NCBI GenBank assembly: GCA_018820925.1
Contig: JAHJNJ010000036.1
Coordinates: forward strand, 186,001 to 250,000
DNA from: Gammaproteobacteria bacterium
Lineage (GTDB): Bacteria; Pseudomonadota; Gammaproteobacteria; Burkholderiales; Gallionellaceae
DNA: 64,000 bases
Direction: 5' to 3'
A program made the translations under genes and the position numbers. This document shows positions 21,193 to 27,877 of this stretch, one piece after another. The first letter of the stretch is position 1. The number at the start of each line of letters is the position of its first letter. The notes beneath the pieces are model-generated. The model ran no database searches. It was not told where the DNA came from and saw nothing but the letters and a program-made list of their open reading frames with translations.

Positions 21193-22086
21193 TTATTGGG
21201 GAACGCAGCCCGACAGCCGGATCAGATGACGGGCTTGAGACTCGCACGCATGGCGGGTTTCGGCATTCAATGTTTTTAACCAAATACCGGGTATTGCTTC
21301 GAGTCCGTACAGCGCCCCGGCCAGCATCCCCGCAATCGCGCCGGTCGTGTCGGCATCGCCGCCGCGATTGACCACGTCGATCAGGCAGTCGCGGAAATCA
21401 TCCGTGTCGAAAAAACTCTGGAACACAGCCTGCACAGTATGGGCGACATAACCACTGGGGTTGGTGCTTTGTTTTATCGCGCGGAACCTGAATTCCGGGA
21501 ATTGTGCAGCGAGCGGGTGGGCGTGTTTGTGCAGCAGATGGTTTTTGTCCTTGCCGCGCAGCGCATCCTGCACCATGAATGCCAGGGTTTCGCAGGCGGC
21601 ATCCGAGGCGACGCAGTGATGGGTAATGTGCGCCTGCGCGCGGCAGGCAACTCGAACCGCCTCTGCGGTTTGTCCAAAGGTGGCAAGCGCTACGGGCAGC
21701 ACGCGCATCGCCGCACCGTTGCCCGCATCGTTGTCCGAGTAGGGCGCCTCGGGATTGCCAGTCTTGCGAAAATGCAGCAGGTTGCGCCGCACGGTGTTGC
21801 CGATATCGACCGGCTTGGCACGCATCCAGGCGTCGAACGCGTGCGCTGCCGCGAGCGCATCCACCTTGTCCTGCTCAATGATGGAATTGCCGAGTGCAAG
21901 CGACATGGTGGTGTCGTCGGTGACCTGGCCGGGTTTGAGGTGCAGCCAGCCGCCGCCGCGCAATGTGTCGTGTACACCGTACTTTGCCGCGATCTCGCGC
22001 GGCAGCATGAACTCCACCGTCGCACCCAGCGCGTCGCCGATGGCGAGGCCGAGGTAGGCGGCGGTGGCACGGTCTGCGGTGGGCAT
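21193..22086 (-). CDS. draG: ADP-ribosyl-[dinitrogenase reductase] hydrolase DraG
   Basis: DraG removes ADP-ribose from the arginine of NifH and so reactivates nitrogenase after ammonium or darkness shut-off. The 297-residue protein has both metal-site motifs of the ADP-ribosylglycohydrolase family: TDDTTM near residue 57 and GGDADTTGA near residue 243, plus AIGDALGATVEF at the N-terminus. It starts 7 bp after nifQ, as last gene of the nifB-led cluster. No draT is visible in the window; it must be elsewhere or absent. Membership of the wider family is certain; the NifH substrate is inferred from context. Confidence 0.9.
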   Translation of the reverse strand: MPTADRATAAYLGLAIGDALGATVEFMLPREIAAKYGVHDTLRGGGWLHLKPGQVTDDTTMSLALGNSIIEQDKVDALAAAHAFDAWMRAKPVDIGNTVRRNLLHFRKTGNPEAPYSDNDAGNGAAMRVLPVALATFGQTAEAVRVACRAQAHITHHCVASDAACETLAFMVQDALRGKDKNHLLHKHAHPLAAQFPEFRFRAIKQSTNPSGYVAHTVQAVFQSFFDTDDFRDCLIDVVNRGGDADTTGAIAGMLAGALYGLEAIPGIWLKTLNAETRHACESQARHLIRLSGCVPQ

Positions 22087-22093
22087 GGGTGGA

Positions 22094-22711
22094 TTAGTCT
22101 TCCGGCCCGAAACATTTCAGATAATCGGTGCAAACTTCGCAACTCGGTGCGCGGCAGGCATTGATCCCCTCTTTTTCGCACAATTGCTTGTAGAGGAATT
22201 TCTTCCATTTCATATCGCGCGTGTTTTTTGCCGCAAGCGCGGGAAAATTCTGCGTCATCAGCTTGCTGAGATAAACGCGCGACCACAGGCCCAGGTCTTG
22301 CCACAAGTGGTCGTTGGCCATGCAGGCCGCAGTGACAATTTCGGCCATCCATTGTTCCGACATGTTGCGGTTGGCGCGGTGCTCAAGCAACAGGCCGAGC
22401 ACATCGTCGCGCTCCAGCGCACGCGGATCGACGACGACTTGCACGTTGCGGATGACCAGTTCGATGCCGGGGAAATGGCATGCCATCAATTCGGAAAATT
22501 CCTTCTCGCCCAAGCCCAGACCAGGCGGCAGCGCGCCGACGCCACCGATCTGGCTGACGATCATCTGCGCGAAAATTTCATCGTTGGGCAATCCGGCCGC
22601 ATGCGCCATCAGTTCGGCATACAGGCCGGAGTTGTGATCAACGCGAAGCGGTGCCTTGTTCACGCTGGGTTGCGCCGGCATTTGTCGAACAAGCATGGCT
22701 TCGATTGGCAT
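22094..22711 (-). CDS. nifQ: NifQ, molybdenum donor for FeMo-cofactor synthesis
   Basis: The 205-residue protein ends with the NifQ cysteine motif C-x4-C-x2-C-x5-C (CRAPSCEVCTDYLKC), which holds the Mo-Fe-S cluster handed to NifEN/NifH. The middle has NRNMSEQWMAEIVTAACMAND and HLWQDLGLWSR, typical of NifQ. The frame is open far upstream but that part overlaps the ferredoxin gene; the ATG at 22711 lies 8 bp after the ferredoxin stop and is used. Confidence 0.92.
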   Translation of the reverse strand: MPIEAMLVRQMPAQPSVNKAPLRVDHNSGLYAELMAHAAGLPNDEIFAQMIVSQIGGVGALPPGLGLGEKEFSELMACHFPGIELVIRNVQVVVDPRALERDDVLGLLLEHRANRNMSEQWMAEIVTAACMANDHLWQDLGLWSRVYLSKLMTQNFPALAAKNTRDMKWKKFLYKQLCEKEGINACRAPSCEVCTDYLKCFGPED

Positions 22712-22719
22712 GCTGGCCT

Positions 22720-23079
22720 CTACTTGCTCGGATACTCGATCAGCAGGTCTTCGTCGCGCAACACCATCTGGCAGGCCAGACGCCATTCCGTGGTGACCAC
22801 GTCGTTGACCTTCATGGCTTCGATCTGGGCTGCGGTGATCCTGCCCGACTCGGAGAGCACCTTGATCTCGCGGTCGGTCAGCGGACCGGCCATGGGCCCC
22901 TTGTTGGACAGGTTGGTGACCTTTACCAGGCAAGTCGAGCACTCGCCGTCCCCGCAACCGAAATCGATGGGGATGTGGTTATCCTTGGCCAGGGTGAGCA
23001 CGGTCATGGTGTGGCTGCCCGCAACGGCGTAAACCGTTTTGTCCTTGTGCAGCGGGCTGGAAAAAGTGATGTTCGGCAT
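22720..23079 (-). CDS. 2Fe-2S ferredoxin of the nif cluster
   Basis: A 119-residue plant-type ferredoxin-like protein with DFGCGDGECSTCLVKV and a fourth ligand in WRLACQMVL. The C-terminal extension includes MAGPLTDREIKVLSESGRIT, as seen in nif-associated 2Fe-2S proteins. A GGAG site precedes the ATG at 23079. Together with the next two ferredoxin genes it probably supplies low-potential electrons to nitrogenase or to cofactor biosynthesis; which step is not known. Confidence 0.88.
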   Translation of the reverse strand: MPNITFSSPLHKDKTVYAVAGSHTMTVLTLAKDNHIPIDFGCGDGECSTCLVKVTNLSNKGPMAGPLTDREIKVLSESGRITAAQIEAMKVNDVVTTEWRLACQMVLRDEDLLIEYPSK

Positions 23080-23120
23080 TTCATTGCTCCATTGGTTGAT
23101 TAAATTCAATTTTCGCGCAA

Positions 23121-23164
23121 GGCGCGCTTGCGCACCGTTCCATCTGGTGCGCGAACGCACCCTA
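23121..23164. repeat. GGTGCGC-type palindromic repeat between two nif ferredoxin genes
   Basis: Imperfect arms GGCGCGCTTGCGCACC and GGTGCGCGAACGCACCCT surround a short loop. The same element is perfect at 38263-38312 and at 62688-62733. It lies in the 99-bp gap between the two 2Fe-2S ferredoxin genes. Confidence 0.75.
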
Positions 23165-23178
23165 CCTGTTGTCGCCGG

Positions 23179-23463
23179 TCACGCCTTGACGACGATGTCG
23201 CCGCCCAGCACTTGCGCCTGGCAGGCGAGACGGTCATTGCGTCCGGCCATGTTCTCCTGCAGTACCTTGTCCTCCAGTACCGAACGTTCGCTCATGTTTT
23301 CCATGCCGCTGACGACACCTACGGTGCACGAACAGCACTCGCCTTCGCGGCAACCGTAGGTGATGCCTGCGCCGATCTTTTCCGAGATCTCGATCAGGCG
23401 CGTACCGGCGGGAACGGTGACGGTGAGGCCGAGTTTTTCGAAGGTGACATTGGCTTTAGGCAT
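23179..23463 (-). CDS. 2Fe-2S ferredoxin of the nif cluster (second copy)
   Basis: A 94-residue protein with the ligand pattern YGCREGECCSCTVGV and DRLACQAQV, the plant-type 2Fe-2S signature. It differs clearly from the adjacent 119-residue ferredoxin, so it is not a recent duplicate. The ATG at 23463 overlaps the nifO stop by 8 bp. Role as electron donor in nitrogen fixation is inferred from position. Confidence 0.88.
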   Translation of the reverse strand: MPKANVTFEKLGLTVTVPAGTRLIEISEKIGAGITYGCREGECCSCTVGVVSGMENMSERSVLEDKVLQENMAGRNDRLACQAQVLGGDIVVKA

Positions 23464-23980
23464 GGCGGACTTCCTCGGGAGCAGGGCAGGGTTGCGATAG
23501 ATGTCCTTTGGGGCAAGCCTCAATGTCACCAGTGAAACAAAAGTCGCGTAGCGATTCGTTTGCCTCCTCGCCCGCTTGCGGGAGAGGATTGAGGAGAGGG
23601 AAACGGTCTAGACCGTTGGGTTTTGCATTGTTCAGGCCTATCCACGCGTTTACCGCTTCGGCATCGAAACCGACACGCAGATCGCCTTCCACTTCCATCA
23701 GCGGGCGGCGGATCAGCAGCGGTTCCGCAAGCATCATGTCGATTGCCGTTTGCGCATCCAGCACGGCAGGATTCACCTCGCCGGATTTCACGCGCGGTGC
23801 GCTGGGGTTGAACCACTGTGCGACAGGCAGTGTGCCGAAGAAAGGGCGCAAGCGTTCGGCTGTCCATTTTTCCGTCAACAGGCTTTTCGCAAGAACAGTG
23901 TGACCCGACGCAGCCAGCCACACCTTTTGTTTGGTGTTGTTGCCGCACCCGGGTTTCTCGTAAAAGACGACGGTTGCCAT
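23456..23980 (-). CDS. nifO: NifO, ArsC-like nitrogenase-associated protein, carrying an in-frame repeat insertion
   Basis: The 174-residue protein begins with an ArsC/Spx-type thioredoxin fold (VVFYEKPGCGNNTKQKVWL), as in NifO, which affects nitrate sensitivity and molybdenum use in Azotobacter. The family core runs to about residue 120, followed by a cysteine-containing tail (DIEACPKGHLSQPCPAPEE). Between them lies a ~20-residue stretch (LLNPLPQAGEEANESL) encoded by a palindromic repeat of the CCCGCTTGCGGG type (23562-23600). The insertion keeps the frame. It starts 1 bp after the upstream 4Fe-4S ferredoxin gene. Confidence 0.85.
   Translation of the reverse strand: MATVVFYEKPGCGNNTKQKVWLAASGHTVLAKSLLTEKWTAERLRPFFGTLPVAQWFNPSAPRVKSGEVNPAVLDAQTAIDMMLAEPLLIRRPLMEVEGDLRVGFDAEAVNAWIGLNNAKPNGLDRFPLLNPLPQAGEEANESLRDFCFTGDIEACPKGHLSQPCPAPEEVRHA
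23562..23600. repeat. Palindromic repeat inside the nifO coding sequence
   Basis: CCTCCTCGCCCGCTTGCGGG followed by AGAGGATTGAGGAGAGGG has the form of a common bacterial intergenic REP element. Read on the minus strand it encodes the PLPQAGEEANESL peptide in NifO without a stop codon. Confidence 0.75.
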
Positions 23981-23981
23981 G

Positions 23982-24236
23982 TCAGGCCGCCAGTTTTTGC
24001 AGCGGAATGTTGGTCAGCGAGCCGGGCGGATTCACCGGTTCGCCGTCCGCGTTGAGAATCGCGCCTTCGATGGGACAAATGCTGGCGCATTGCGAATCCT
24101 CGAAATCGCCGGAACATTCGTTGCACTTGTCCGGATCGATCAGGAAGTGCGGTTTCGCTTCGTAGATCGCCTTGCTCGGACACAGCGGTTCGCACGCCCA
24201 ACAACTGGTGCAGGATTCGATGATTTCGAGTGCCAT
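23982..24236 (-). CDS. fdxN: nif-type 2[4Fe-4S] ferredoxin (FdxN-like)
   Basis: An 84-residue bacterial ferredoxin with a regular cluster motif CTSCWACEPLCP and a second, longer one (CNECSGDFEDSQCASICP) whose C-x2-C-x8-C-x3-C spacing is typical of nif ferredoxins of the FdxN group. It follows nifB on the same strand, the same order as in Azotobacter nifB-fdxN-nifO-nifQ. Likely electron donor for NifB or nitrogenase reductase. The symbol is by analogy. Confidence 0.9.
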   Translation of the reverse strand: MALEIIESCTSCWACEPLCPSKAIYEAKPHFLIDPDKCNECSGDFEDSQCASICPIEGAILNADGEPVNPPGSLTNIPLQKLAA

Positions 24237-24325: not shown

Positions 24326-25828
24326 TTATGCGACTTTCTGTTGTTCGTCCAACTTCGCATCCAGCTTGCCCTCCACACGCATCTCTTCATACACCTTGAG
24401 AATCGCGTCCTCGATGGGTTCCATCGCGTGCTCGCCGTTGGGTTGTATGCCCGCGGCTTCCAGCGGCCCCCAGGGTTCGTAGCCGACCTTGCTGCACAGC
24501 ACGGCCTCGCAACCGGCCAGTACCTTCAGCGTCTTGTCCAGTACGCTTTCGCCATCGCCGCAGCTGATGTCGCCTTCGCAGTACGGCGTGGTCTTGCGGT
24601 GGCCGATGAAGCGCACGCCTTCCGAAGAGGCTTCATAGATCAGGAACTCGCCCGCGTGGCCGAAGTGTTCGTTGATCACGCCGCCGCCCTTGGTGGCGAC
24701 CGCCATCAGTACCGCTCGCGTGGCTTCTTTCTTCTTGAGTCCCTGGATGTTGACGATCTGCACCTTGGCTTCCTTGGCCAGACGTTTGCTTTCCAGTTCT
24801 TCGTTGATGGCCGCATGCACCTGTGCGCGCATCTTCATCGCTTCCGGATAATTGATCTCCATCTGCTCGATCTTGTCCATGGTGAACTCGGAACCTCTAT
24901 CCTCGCCCAGCAAGCCCACCGCATCGGCGCGGCACTGGCGGCAGTGGCGCATCATGTTCATGTCGCCCGCGCAGGCGTCCTGCAAGGCTTGCAGTTCCTC
25001 GTTGGTCGGACCGCGCTGGCCGGTGAGGCCGTAATAAGTGCCGTGCTCCGCTTCCGAGATCAGCGGCATCACGTTGTGCAGGAAAGCGCCCTTGGCTTTC
25101 ACGATCTTCGACACTTCTTCCAGATGCTTGTCGTTCACGCCGGGGATCATCACCGAATTCACTTTCACCAGGATGCCCTTGGCGACCAGCATCTCCAGCC
25201 CCTTCTGCTGCTGCTCGATGAGGATGGCGGCGGCTTCGCGGCCCTTGATGCGCTTGTTCTTCCAGAAAATCCACGGATAGATTTGCGCGCCCACATCGGG
25301 ATCGACGCAGTTGATGGTGATGGTCACGTGGTCGATGTTGTACTGCGACAATTGCTCGACCTGCTCGGGCAGCGACAGGCCGTTGGTCGACACGCACAGC
25401 TTGATGTCCGGCGCCTGCTCGGACAACATGCGGAACGTCTCGAAGGTGCGCTCCGGGTTGGCCAAAGGATCGCCGGGGCCGGCGATGCCCAGCACCGTCA
25501 TTTGCGGAATGGTCGCCGCAACGGCCAATACTTTCTTTACTGCCTGCACCGGATGGTGCAACTCGGATACCACGCCGGGGCGCGACTCGTTGGCGCAGTC
25601 GTATTTGCGGTTGCAGTAATTACATTGGATGTTGCAGGCCGGGGCTACCGCCACATGCATGCGTGCGAAGTAATGGTGCGCTTCTTCGGAATAGCAGGGA
25701 TGGTTGAATACTTTCTGGCGGATGTGCTCCGGCAGGTGGCTCATTTGTTCATCCTTCGATCCGCATGATCCGGCGGAACACCCACCCTGCTTGGGGGCTT
25801 CGGCGACTGCGATGTTGATGACGGGCAT
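24326..25828 (-). CDS. nifB: NifB, radical SAM FeMo-cofactor precursor (NifB-co) synthase
   Basis: NifB fuses two [4Fe-4S] clusters with a SAM-derived carbide and a sulfur to give the 8Fe core of FeMo-co. The 500-residue protein has the SAM-cluster motif CNIQCNYC near residue 65, further NifB cysteines in CRQCRAD, and a C-terminal NifX-like domain from about residue 385 (KGGGVINEHFGHAGEFLIY). Only the two-domain form is expected in proteobacteria. GGAGG lies 14 bases before the ATG at 25828 but 8 bases before an in-frame GTG at 25834, so translation may begin two codons earlier. Transcription is predicted from the sigma-54 promoter at 25871-25885. Confidence 0.96.
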   Translation of the reverse strand: MPVINIAVAEAPKQGGCSAGSCGSKDEQMSHLPEHIRQKVFNHPCYSEEAHHYFARMHVAVAPACNIQCNYCNRKYDCANESRPGVVSELHHPVQAVKKVLAVAATIPQMTVLGIAGPGDPLANPERTFETFRMLSEQAPDIKLCVSTNGLSLPEQVEQLSQYNIDHVTITINCVDPDVGAQIYPWIFWKNKRIKGREAAAILIEQQQKGLEMLVAKGILVKVNSVMIPGVNDKHLEEVSKIVKAKGAFLHNVMPLISEAEHGTYYGLTGQRGPTNEELQALQDACAGDMNMMRHCRQCRADAVGLLGEDRGSEFTMDKIEQMEINYPEAMKMRAQVHAAINEELESKRLAKEAKVQIVNIQGLKKKEATRAVLMAVATKGGGVINEHFGHAGEFLIYEASSEGVRFIGHRKTTPYCEGDISCGDGESVLDKTLKVLAGCEAVLCSKVGYEPWGPLEAAGIQPNGEHAMEPIEDAILKVYEEMRVEGKLDAKLDEQQKVA

Positions 25829-25870
25829 TTGCACGGTTTTATCCTCCGACTGACGTTTGGCTGGATATGA

Positions 25871-25885
25871 GCAAACTGCGTGCCT
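25871..25885 (-). promoter_or_regulatory. Sigma-54 (-24/-12) promoter of nifB
   Basis: On the minus strand the sequence is AGGCAC-GCAGT-TTGC, one mismatch from TGGCAC-N5-TTGC, with the essential GG and GC dinucleotides correctly spaced. The predicted start point is about 25859, giving a 25-31 base leader that contains the GGAGG ribosome site of nifB. Confidence 0.82.
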
Positions 25886-25946
25886 GTCCAAAACCGTCAG
25901 ATAACCCATTGTTTTATAGAGACGCAAAATCCGGGCGGGCATTGAC

Positions 25947-25962
25947 TGTTGCAAACTACACA
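25947..25962. promoter_or_regulatory. NifA upstream activator sequence 1
   Basis: TGT-TGCAAACTAC-ACA exactly matches the NifA site TGT-N10-ACA. It is centred about 95 bp upstream of the predicted nifB start point, a standard distance for looping activation. Confidence 0.75.
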
Positions 25963-25979
25963 TGAAACTTGCGGGCGCT

Positions 25980-25995
25980 TGTGGTGAAGCCGACA
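25980..25995. promoter_or_regulatory. NifA upstream activator sequence 2
   Basis: TGT-GGTGAAGCCG-ACA is a second exact TGT-N10-ACA match. Its centre is 33 bp from site 1, close to three helical turns, so two NifA dimers could bind on the same DNA face. It lies about 150 bp from the divergent plus-strand start point. Confidence 0.7.
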
Positions 25996-26112
25996 AAATT
26001 CCGGGGCACATTGTTTGCGGGTGAGAGGTAGGGCTTGAAAGGCATTTTGTGCGAGCGTTAAACGTGCATTGCGTCAGTGAGTTAGTTAAATCCCGCCACG
26101 ATTGCTTTGCAC

Positions 26113-26127
26113 TGGCACTGTAATTGC
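26113..26127 (+). promoter_or_regulatory. Sigma-54 (-24/-12) promoter of the divergent Fe-S protein gene
   Basis: TGGCAC-TGTAA-TTGC is a perfect match to the -24/-12 consensus. The predicted start point is about 26139, only three bases before the first ATG of the downstream gene. Confidence 0.85.
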
Positions 26128-26141
26128 CTCTGCAATAAACC

Positions 26142-27524
26142 ATGAAGAAACATCATCTCGACTGGTCCGCCTACGAAACCGCCGGACAGGGCGACGCCTA
26201 TGCGGGCATTCCCGCCACCGGCGGGGATTTTGCCAAGGCGGTGGCGGTGTGCATCAGCGACAAGCTGTGCCAGCGCACGCCGAAGGGTGTCATGTGCCCG
26301 AGCTTTCGCGCCACAGACGATGCCGCGCACTCGCCGGGCGGCAGGGTGACGGTACTCAAGGCCGCATTGAACGGCGAACTCGGCGAGAATCCTTTTGCCG
26401 ATCCAGGATTGGCCGAGGTCATGGATCTTTGCGTCGGTTGCAAAGGCTGCAAGCGCGAGTGCGCCAACCAGGTGGATATGGCCGCGATCAAGATCGAGTA
26501 CCAGGCGCAGCGCAATGAACAACTGGGCGTGCCGCTGCGCGACCGGCTGGTGGCGGGTTTGCCCAAATGGCTGCGTCATCGCCGCCTGTTGCGCAGCCTG
26601 ATCCGCTGGCGCAATCGCACACCTTGGCTGGCGAAACTGGGCGAAAGATTTCTCGGCATCTCGGCCAAACGAAAACTTCCCGAGCCGTCCACCACTCCGT
26701 TCGTACTGAGTAGCGAAGCGTATCGAAGTATGAACGATGGCGAAGCACAGGCCGAGGCAGATAGCAAAGAAGTCATCCTGTTCGTCGATACTTTCGCCCT
26801 GCACTTCGAACCGGAAATTGCACAGGCCGCGCATCAGGTGCTGACTGCCGCAGGTTATCGCGTCAGCACCCTGCAAGCGCTGCCGGATGACAAGGAGCCG
26901 GAGCGCGCCCTGTGTTGCGGGCGCACGTATCTTTCGCTGGGGCAAGTGGAAGCCGCGCGCTACGAGGCTCAACGCTTGCAAAGCGCATTGCGTCCGGCAC
27001 TGGCCGCAGGCACGCCCATCGTCGGGCTGGAACCCTCGTGCATTTTGTCGCTGCGCGACGATCACCTGAAACTCGGTCTGGGCGAGGAAGCGCTGGCGCT
27101 GTCAAAGCAGGTTTACCTGCTCGAAGAATTCATCGCGCGCGAACATGACCGCAAACGTTTTAATCTCGAATTCAAACCGCTGGCCCGCAGCAAGACGCTG
27201 GTACACGGACATTGCCATCAGAAAGCGGTCGGCGCGATGAAGTCGTTGCGCAAAGTGTTGCGTTTGATTCCCGGGTTCGAGTTTGAATTTATCGAGGCGA
27301 GTTGTTGCGGCATGTCGGGCAGCTTCGGGCTGGAGGCGGAGCATGCCGACATTTCCATGCAAATGGCGGAAATCGATTTGCTGCCCGCGCTGCGTGCCGC
27401 GCCCGCCGACGCCACCATTCTCGCCAACGGATTTTCCTGCCGCCACCAGATCCGCGAAGGCGCGGAGCGCAAACCGATACACGTCGCCTTGCTGTTGCGC
27501 GACGCACTTTTTACAAAGGAATAA
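26142..27524 (+). CDS. (Fe-S)-binding CCG-domain oxidoreductase subunit, predicted NifA-regulated
   Basis: The 460-residue protein has an N-terminal pair of 4Fe-4S motifs (CISDKLCQRTPKGVMCPSF and CVGCKGCKRECANQVDM) and two CCG-type cysteine domains (ALCCGRTYLS..., SCILSLRDDH, HGHCHQKAVG, EASCCGMSGSFG). It matches the iron-sulfur half of D-lactate/2-hydroxyglutarate dehydrogenase-type fusion proteins, here without the FAD domain. Such proteins pass electrons from a flavin enzyme or form heterodisulfide-type clusters. The sigma-54 promoter ends so close to the ATG that the mRNA would be almost leaderless; a downstream GTG (26241 or 26247) is an alternative start. A role in electron supply to nitrogenase is inferred from regulation. 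Confidence 0.87.
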   Translation: MKKHHLDWSAYETAGQGDAYAGIPATGGDFAKAVAVCISDKLCQRTPKGVMCPSFRATDDAAHSPGGRVTVLKAALNGELGENPFADPGLAEVMDLCVGCKGCKRECANQVDMAAIKIEYQAQRNEQLGVPLRDRLVAGLPKWLRHRRLLRSLIRWRNRTPWLAKLGERFLGISAKRKLPEPSTTPFVLSSEAYRSMNDGEAQAEADSKEVILFVDTFALHFEPEIAQAAHQVLTAAGYRVSTLQALPDDKEPERALCCGRTYLSLGQVEAARYEAQRLQSALRPALAAGTPIVGLEPSCILSLRDDHLKLGLGEEALALSKQVYLLEEFIAREHDRKRFNLEFKPLARSKTLVHGHCHQKAVGAMKSLRKVLRLIPGFEFEFIEASCCGMSGSFGLEAEHADISMQMAEIDLLPALRAAPADATILANGFSCRHQIREGAERKPIHVALLLRDALFTKE

Positions 27525-27526
27525 AT

Positions 27527-27877
27527 ATGCTGACCGCTGCCATGCTGGGAATCATTGAAAAGATCGGGCTGGACATCATGATCCTGACCGACGAAGTCGA
27601 CGCGGACGAATTTTTCGCCAGCCGCATGACGCGGGCGCGCACGCTGCAACTCATGCGCAGTCTGGTGCAGACCGTTTCCAACTTGCCCGCCGGAACGTGC
27701 GAACGTTTGCCGCAAATCGATTGGGCCGCCTGGGCGGCATTGCGAATCGTGCTCACCAATCCGGCGCGGCACAAATTCCAGATCTGGGTGGCGATCCGGG
27801 AGCTCACCCCGCTGACCGTGCAGCAACTCAAAAGCTACAGGAAAATACAACCGCAGCTGTTTGCCATGGTGCTGTGA
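27527..27877 (+). CDS. Small conserved-looking protein coupled to the Fe-S protein gene
   Basis: A 116-residue helical soluble protein starting 2 bp after the Fe-S protein stop, with AAAGGA seven bases before the ATG. It has an acidic first half (EKIGLDIMILTDEVDADEFF) and several tryptophans (DWAAWAALRIVL). No cysteine cluster or domain is recognised. Joint transcription from the sigma-54 promoter implies a nitrogen-fixation role, perhaps as partner of the Fe-S protein, but this is inference. Confidence 0.75.
   Translation: MLTAAMLGIIEKIGLDIMILTDEVDADEFFASRMTRARTLQLMRSLVQTVSNLPAGTCERLPQIDWAAWAALRIVLTNPARHKFQIWVAIRELTPLTVQQLKSYRKIQPQLFAMVL

Follow-up and report, generated by a model that had tools for sequence, protein, structure and literature searches.

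The 307-bp region between nifB and a divergently transcribed gene for an Fe-S protein, here called fes, is best explained as a divergent NifA/σ54 control region that fires nifB in one direction and fes, with its small partner gene, in the other, with fes being translated as a leaderless mRNA. We put the probability of this reading at roughly 0.7. The window analysed is a 64,000-nucleotide stretch of a Gallionellaceae genome, and coordinates refer to it. In the proposed mechanism, NifA would bind both of its upstream activator sequences (UASs), and a bend at an IHF-like site would help NifA to contact the σ54-polymerase at the nifB promoter. A second putative σ54 promoter, which comes and goes with fes, faces the opposite way and would fire fes and the partner gene under the same nitrogen-fixation signal. 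Transcription would start at about the fes AUG, the predicted leader in the window being 3 nt, and fes would be translated from this 5'-terminal AUG, without a Shine-Dalgarno (SD) sequence.

Promoters of the σ54 class have GG at -24 and GC at -12 at a fixed spacing, with the consensus TGGCAC-N5-TTGC, and the NifA UAS is TGT-N10-ACA, placed at looping distance from the promoter. The nifB/fes intergenic region runs from 25835 to 26141. On the minus strand, nifB (24326-25834; TIGR01290, 650.8 bits against a cut-off of 343.65) starts with GTG at 25834. A start at the ATG at 25828, 6 bases further in, was ruled out by the GTG being common to the relatives, and the nifB start of L029 also reads GTG in the alignment. 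Upstream lie the SD GGAGGA (25842-25847) and the σ54-type promoter AGGCACGCAGTTTGC (25871-25885, minus strand), which matches 9 of 10 core positions; with a predicted +1 at 25859 the nifB leader is an ordinary one of 25 nt that includes this SD. The IHF-like site TAACCCATTGTTT (25902-25914), flanked by the nifB promoter and the UAS pair, matches 8 of the 9 specified positions of the IHF consensus. A motif scan together with conservation defines the two NifA-type UASs, UAS 1, TGTTGCAAACTACACA (25947-25962), and UAS 2, TGTGGTGAAGCCGACA (25980-25995). On the plus strand, the fes promoter TGGCACTGTAATTGC (26113-26127) matches all 10 core positions. Its predicted +1, at 26139, leaves a 3-nt leader without an SD (26139-26141) before fes (26142-27524), which encodes 460 aa with a 4Fe-4S dicluster and two CCG motifs. 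The partner gene (27527-27877, plus strand), for a helical protein of 116 aa, has its own SD, AAAGGA. The initial annotation had reported both promoters and both exact TGT-N10-ACA sites, and all are found where it placed them; the 33-bp spacing of the UAS centres, which it described as near three helical turns, corresponds to 3.1 turns at 10.5 bp.

Control regions of proteobacterial nifB genes are made up of NifA UASs, an IHF site and a -24/-12 promoter. The present region is like them in its TGT-N10-ACA sites, IHF-like site, GG/GC promoter and downstream nif genes, and unlike them in having a second, divergent σ54 promoter for a gene without a nif name.

How much weight can such motifs bear? 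TGT-N10-ACA occurs 9 times in the window, against 10.65 occurrences expected. This is the chance level, so the bare motif proves nothing, and its rarity was dropped as evidence. Combinations of elements are scarcer: in 20,000 samples of the 307-bp region from a first-order Markov model, a UAS pair 28-34 bp apart arose in 0.04%, a perfect plus-strand site in 0.17%, and a perfect plus-strand site together with a 9/10 minus-strand site in 0.005%. The main support for the predicted control elements is conservation across relatives. When 18 nifB-fes regions are aligned, conserved blocks fall at the nifB SD, the nifB -12/-24 elements, the IHF-like TAA-N4-TTGTTT, both UAS sites and the plus-strand -24/-12 elements, most of the remaining sequence having drifted. 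TAA-N4-TTGTTT is invariant in all 18, and the pattern is matched in 24 of the 27 fes loci of the window's family.

Relatives of fes were taken from 150 genomes of the same family, from the best 80 of 584 contig matches, and from 199 genomes of a second family of the same order (f202), which was picked through an order-wide pattern (399 genomes, 21 with a match). A locus was fetched for 27 of the 28 family genomes with fes, G131 being left out. Seven duplicate loci were dropped, leaving 31; several window-family loci duplicate records named Sideroxydans, Sideroxyarcus, Gallionella or Gallionellaceae. The set for the analysis of leaders comprised 89 de-duplicated rows, the window included; it was assembled by similarity to the protein of the window and is rich in near relatives. 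Rows without a [MV]-x2-4-LDW start, near-duplicates and matches below 250 bits were left out.

What stands out in this region is that the promoter keeps a fixed position at the start codon, and because the initial annotation missed this near-zero leader, its interpretation is incomplete. The +1 was predicted by counting the C of the -12 GC as -12; σ54 start sites vary by a few bases. Judged by the best σ54 site, the predicted leader is 1-4 nt long in 32 of the 89 rows and 13-28 nt long in 25, and in none does it measure 5-12 nt. The other rows are five in which nafY precedes fes, two with other insertions, and 25 with no site of at least 8/10 within 110 nt or with a site that gives a leader of 49-74 nt, this count including L068, a row with a predicted leader of -1 and a weak 8/10 site that was set aside from the short-leader class by hand. 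The two main classes differ in their predicted pairing with the anti-SD. The median duplex energy is +0.9 kcal/mol for leaders of 1-4 nt versus -6.6 kcal/mol for those of 13-28 nt (Mann-Whitney p 7e-6, with relatedness ignored and the rows not independent). Of the 32 short-leader rows, 31 have energies above -4; L048 has an SD-like GGAGG ahead of the start predicted for it. An SD is present in 18 of the 25 longer-leader rows. All 32 short-leader genes start with ATG, versus 23 of the 25 with longer leaders. In six short-leader rows, including the lone alphaproteobacterial one (L062), the promoter match is only 8/10.

On a tree of 88 Fes proteins (L183, too short for the tree, was kept in the leader statistics) the short-leader class forms two deep clades plus L180. 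The first, the window's family, has a short leader in 20 of 27 rows; the second, made up of Dechloromonas, Rhodocyclus, Rhodoblastus and kin, has one of 1-3 nt in all 11. The Azoarcus/Zoogloea-type genes, with a leader of 13-17 nt and an SD, sit beside the window-family clade, and well-supported branches force at least five changes of leader state. In the 20 family loci the distance from promoter to ATG is fixed at 1-4 nt, while across the nifB-adjacent fes loci the promoter lies anywhere from 80 to 211 bp from UAS 2. We consider it somewhat better than an even bet that two or more separated lineages have kept a NifA/σ54 promoter 1-4 nt ahead of the start codon, with the result that a leaderless mRNA yields a nif Fe-S protein.

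Might translation begin elsewhere? In the family short-leader rows, pN/pS is 0.05 over the 24 codons that follow the LDW anchor, which argues that translation starts upstream of these codons, at or very near Met1. A downstream start, such as at the GTGs near codon 35, was ruled out by this protein-level constraint on the preceding codons. Upstream of the fes ATG the window has an in-frame stop directly. An in-frame start codon occurs before any stop in 22 of the 32 short-leader rows, and all 22 precede the predicted +1 and thus lie outside the predicted transcript. The exact start site of fes and its leaderless translation are predictions from promoter position and comparison, and should be read as such.

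The window's own genome provides a further comparison. It holds 31 exact TGGCAC-N5-TTGC sites, and for 30 of them the loci were read, gene names being taken from protein N-termini and not from a family search. Many of these sites fall within long open frames, where they probably arose by chance. Predicted leaders with an SD were found for a likely nifH (55 nt), rnfA (16 nt), amtB (25 nt), rpoH (28 nt) and a pilin-like gene (56 nt). Among the 30 sites fes is the only clear short-leader case. At locus L144 the open frame starts 6 nt from the predicted +1; in the relative of this gene behind L128 the frame begins about 80 nt down, a hint that L144, too, starts later. A likely NifE gene has a leader of 24 nt with a weak SD, and seven of the 25 longer-leader relatives of fes, all from methylotroph-named records, lack a good SD, so that the lack of an SD is by itself no proof of leaderless translation.

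One might suppose that the plus-strand promoter is real and NifA-dependent, and yet that the main fes transcript starts further upstream, at a σ70 promoter or another σ54-like site, and has an ordinary leader. There is a second plus-strand σ54-like site in the window, GGGCACATTGTTTGC at 26004-26018, which the initial annotation overlooked, and several relatives have extra, weaker plus-strand sites, for example with leaders of 106-107, 58 or 238 nt. However, the other 17 aligned regions show no counterpart of GGGCACATTGTTTGC at this position, and in the 18-region alignment the stretch between the UASs and the plus-strand promoter is poorly conserved. With its position not conserved, the site was ruled out as the real fes promoter and is probably a chance match. 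Moreover, the scarcity of good SDs before the ATG in the short-leader rows holds whatever the start site. On these grounds, drawn from a scan for σ54-type sites, an upstream start appears unlikely.

The exceptions within the family raise a different issue. The leaderless arrangement is missing from seven of the 27 fes loci of the family. Five of these (L002, L008, L009, L010 and L014) have nafY and a gene of 87 aa (91 aa in L008) between the same promoter and fes, and two (L013 and L016) have 166-178 nt of other sequence there. For the nafY-led loci we predict a leader 31-45 nt in length, with an SD of the GGAG or GGGG type; the 87-aa gene overlaps the fes ATG. In L002, the inserted nafY has DIMCO_N plus Nitro_FeMo-Co domains, and the 87-aa gene has no Pfam match. 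All 15 genomes searched carry a NafY-like gene elsewhere, so that the inserted nafY is a second one in these five genomes. Since the nafY-led loci are scattered among short-leader rows on the fes tree, the short leader could be a by-product of repeated loss and gain of a nafY cassette, with no selection for leaderless translation and with fes poorly translated. We think this quite improbable, as the Dechloromonas/Rhodocyclus/Rhodoblastus clade keeps its 1-3 nt spacing in every row and the start of the protein is under strong constraint in the family short-leader rows. Leaderless translation of fes is still the reading we favor.

Is fes a nif gene at all? The initial annotation held that the plus-strand genes are bona fide nif genes, and the comparison supports this. 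A TGGC-type σ54 site scoring 9 or 10 of 10 is present in all 27 fetched family fes loci. By contrast, in 19 nifB regions of genomes lacking a fes orthologue no such site of at least 9/10 lies within 700 bp, nor does one in the region of G003. Of the 150 family genomes, 28 have a fes orthologue (77-90% identity) and 49 have nifB, which is present in 26 of the 28 with fes (Fisher p 1.6e-13, relatedness ignored). In the two fes genomes without a nifB match, G031 and G101, the contigs end beside fes, and one of these contigs (L020) still shows a partial nifB. Many fes genes that lie apart from nifB possess a σ54 site of their own, several with a UAS also, and a NifA scoring above the curated cut-off is encoded in the window's genome. 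Where relatives share the gene order, they have kept the sites as well. The presence and absence of the promoter with fes, together with the co-occurrence with nifB, make fes very probably a NifA/σ54 gene and a member of the nif regulon. No fes orthologue was found in 23 of the 49 nifB genomes of the family, so fes is probably dispensable for nitrogen fixation.

A related question is to which gene the UAS pair belongs. Of the 46 family genomes examined, 43 keep it, with a spacing of 33 bp in 41 and 32 bp in two (L003 and L225). In 26 of 27 family genomes the pair is inside the fes locus; in G003 it is about 2 kb away, before nifB. The control set comprised 20 nifB upstream regions, namely that of G003 and 19 from the 23 nifB genomes without a fes orthologue (G002, G009, G087 and G107 being absent); one region, L231, has only 801 bases, being ended by the contig end. 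Of the 20 regions, 17 have a nifB promoter of at least 9/10. G003 and 16 of the 19 from fes-less genomes carry the UAS pair, and the other three (G010, G065 and G088) have a single site. As these regions have no plus-strand promoter, conservation of the pair is explained by nifB alone. The spacings point the same way. The starts of the nifB promoter and of the first UAS lie 68-78 bp apart in the fes loci, and 76-77 bp apart in 14 of 16 control regions, those with a 9/10 nifB promoter, compared with the wide range noted above between UAS 2 and the plus-strand promoter. From retention without fes and from these spacings, we infer that the UAS pair belongs to nifB: the predicted pair and the IHF-like site go with nifB, and fes with its putative promoter is a module docked beside them. 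It is plausible that in the window one pair, if bound by NifA as predicted, serves both promoters.

Could the UAS pair and the σ54 machinery then serve nifB only, with the plus-strand site fortuitous or a relic and fes not nitrogen-regulated, as retention of the pair where fes is absent might suggest? This is highly improbable in view of the strict association of the promoter with fes, the σ54 sites, several with UASs, of many fes genes away from nifB, and the co-occurrence of fes with nifB.

In several fes genes a UAS-type site of their own lies 72-101 nt upstream of the ATG. In L018, a 1-kb insertion parts the UAS pair from the fes promoter, and a new TGT-N10-ACA resembling UAS 2 is found near the promoter, 72 nt upstream of the fes ATG.

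What would it mean if fes is made from a leaderless mRNA? Leaderless mRNAs of Campylobacter are preceded by σ70 promoter sequence, and the σ54 sites of that organism lie 8-13 nt upstream of mapped starts (PMC3847290). Those of Bradyrhizobium have the extended -10 motif TGnTA (PMC4842269), those of Deinococcus have σ70-type -10 or extended -10 motifs (PMC12340547), and leaderless starts in S. meliloti are all AUG (PMC3616915); these statements reflect the available portions of the four reports. The fes gene is like the Campylobacter, Bradyrhizobium and Deinococcus cases in having a (predicted) promoter directly before the start codon and no ribosome binding site. It is unlike them, as far as those portions describe them, in that its promoter is of the -24/-12 type and would require an activator. 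The available text of PMC4842269, PMC3616915, PMC12340547, PMC3847290, PMC12403871 and PMC5243855 ties no leaderless mRNA to σ54, although a case may be in print elsewhere. If the proposal is true, transcription of fes would be all-or-none through NifA and its translation would bypass the SD pathway, and leaderless fes might be favored when 30S subunits or initiation factors are limiting in nitrogen starvation. Should the start site be confirmed, fes would provide a conserved leaderless mRNA driven by an activator-dependent polymerase, joining an all-or-none transcription switch to a translation route that the portions cited report for σ70 genes. Whatever the outcome, parts of the control region can now be assigned to their respective gene, nifB or fes, and an unnamed gene pair very probably joins the nif regulon in Gallionella/Sideroxydans-type and other betaproteobacteria. 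The fes genes also form a natural single-gene series for the study of leaderless translation, with leaders of 1-4 nt without an SD, leaders of 13-17 nt with one, and the nafY-led operon.

The likeliest role of the Fes protein is electron transfer in the cytoplasm, in the service of nitrogen fixation. It matches Fer4_8, Fer4_17 and CCG. In its 4Fe-4S dicluster and CCG cysteine motifs it is like GlpC and the C-terminal module of YdiJ, but it falls far below the equivalog cut-offs of both (160.7 bits against 278 for GlpC, 138.1 against 1350 for YdiJ), and there is no flavin subunit among the neighboring proteins scanned. The structural model (pLDDT 86.6) matches LutA, EtfD and HdrB, with Foldseek E values of 5.9e-8 for LutA and 3.8e-7 for EtfD; PDB sequences searched with a profile of the Fes alignment yielded no match at E 0.001. 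An orthologue of Fes is not identifiable from the available parts of two papers on Azoarcus BH72 (PMC3916325 and PMC9769520).

The 116-aa partner gene follows fes in all 27 family loci, in some of which it is cut. Active sites of HEPN/HepT RNases have a conserved R-x4-6-H. The partner, modeled as helical (pLDDT 93.6), may share the fold of these proteins, its top Foldseek matches being HEPN toxins with a probability of 0.94-0.99 but E values of only 0.2-0.6. It is unlike them in that a 20-row alignment shows no conserved R-x4-6-H, and it has no Pfam match.

Some features of the neighborhood may be mentioned. Behind nifB and in the same direction (21193-24236, minus strand) are genes for a YfhL-like ferredoxin, an ArsC-like nitrogenase-associated protein (TIGR01616), two 2Fe-2S ferredoxin-type proteins, NifQ and a DraG-type hydrolase. 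In Dechloromonas, a gene with a hemerythrin domain by family match is convergent to fes (L040, 5316-5756, minus strand), and a gene for a similar protein, also convergent to fes, is found in L044 (5277-5819, minus strand).
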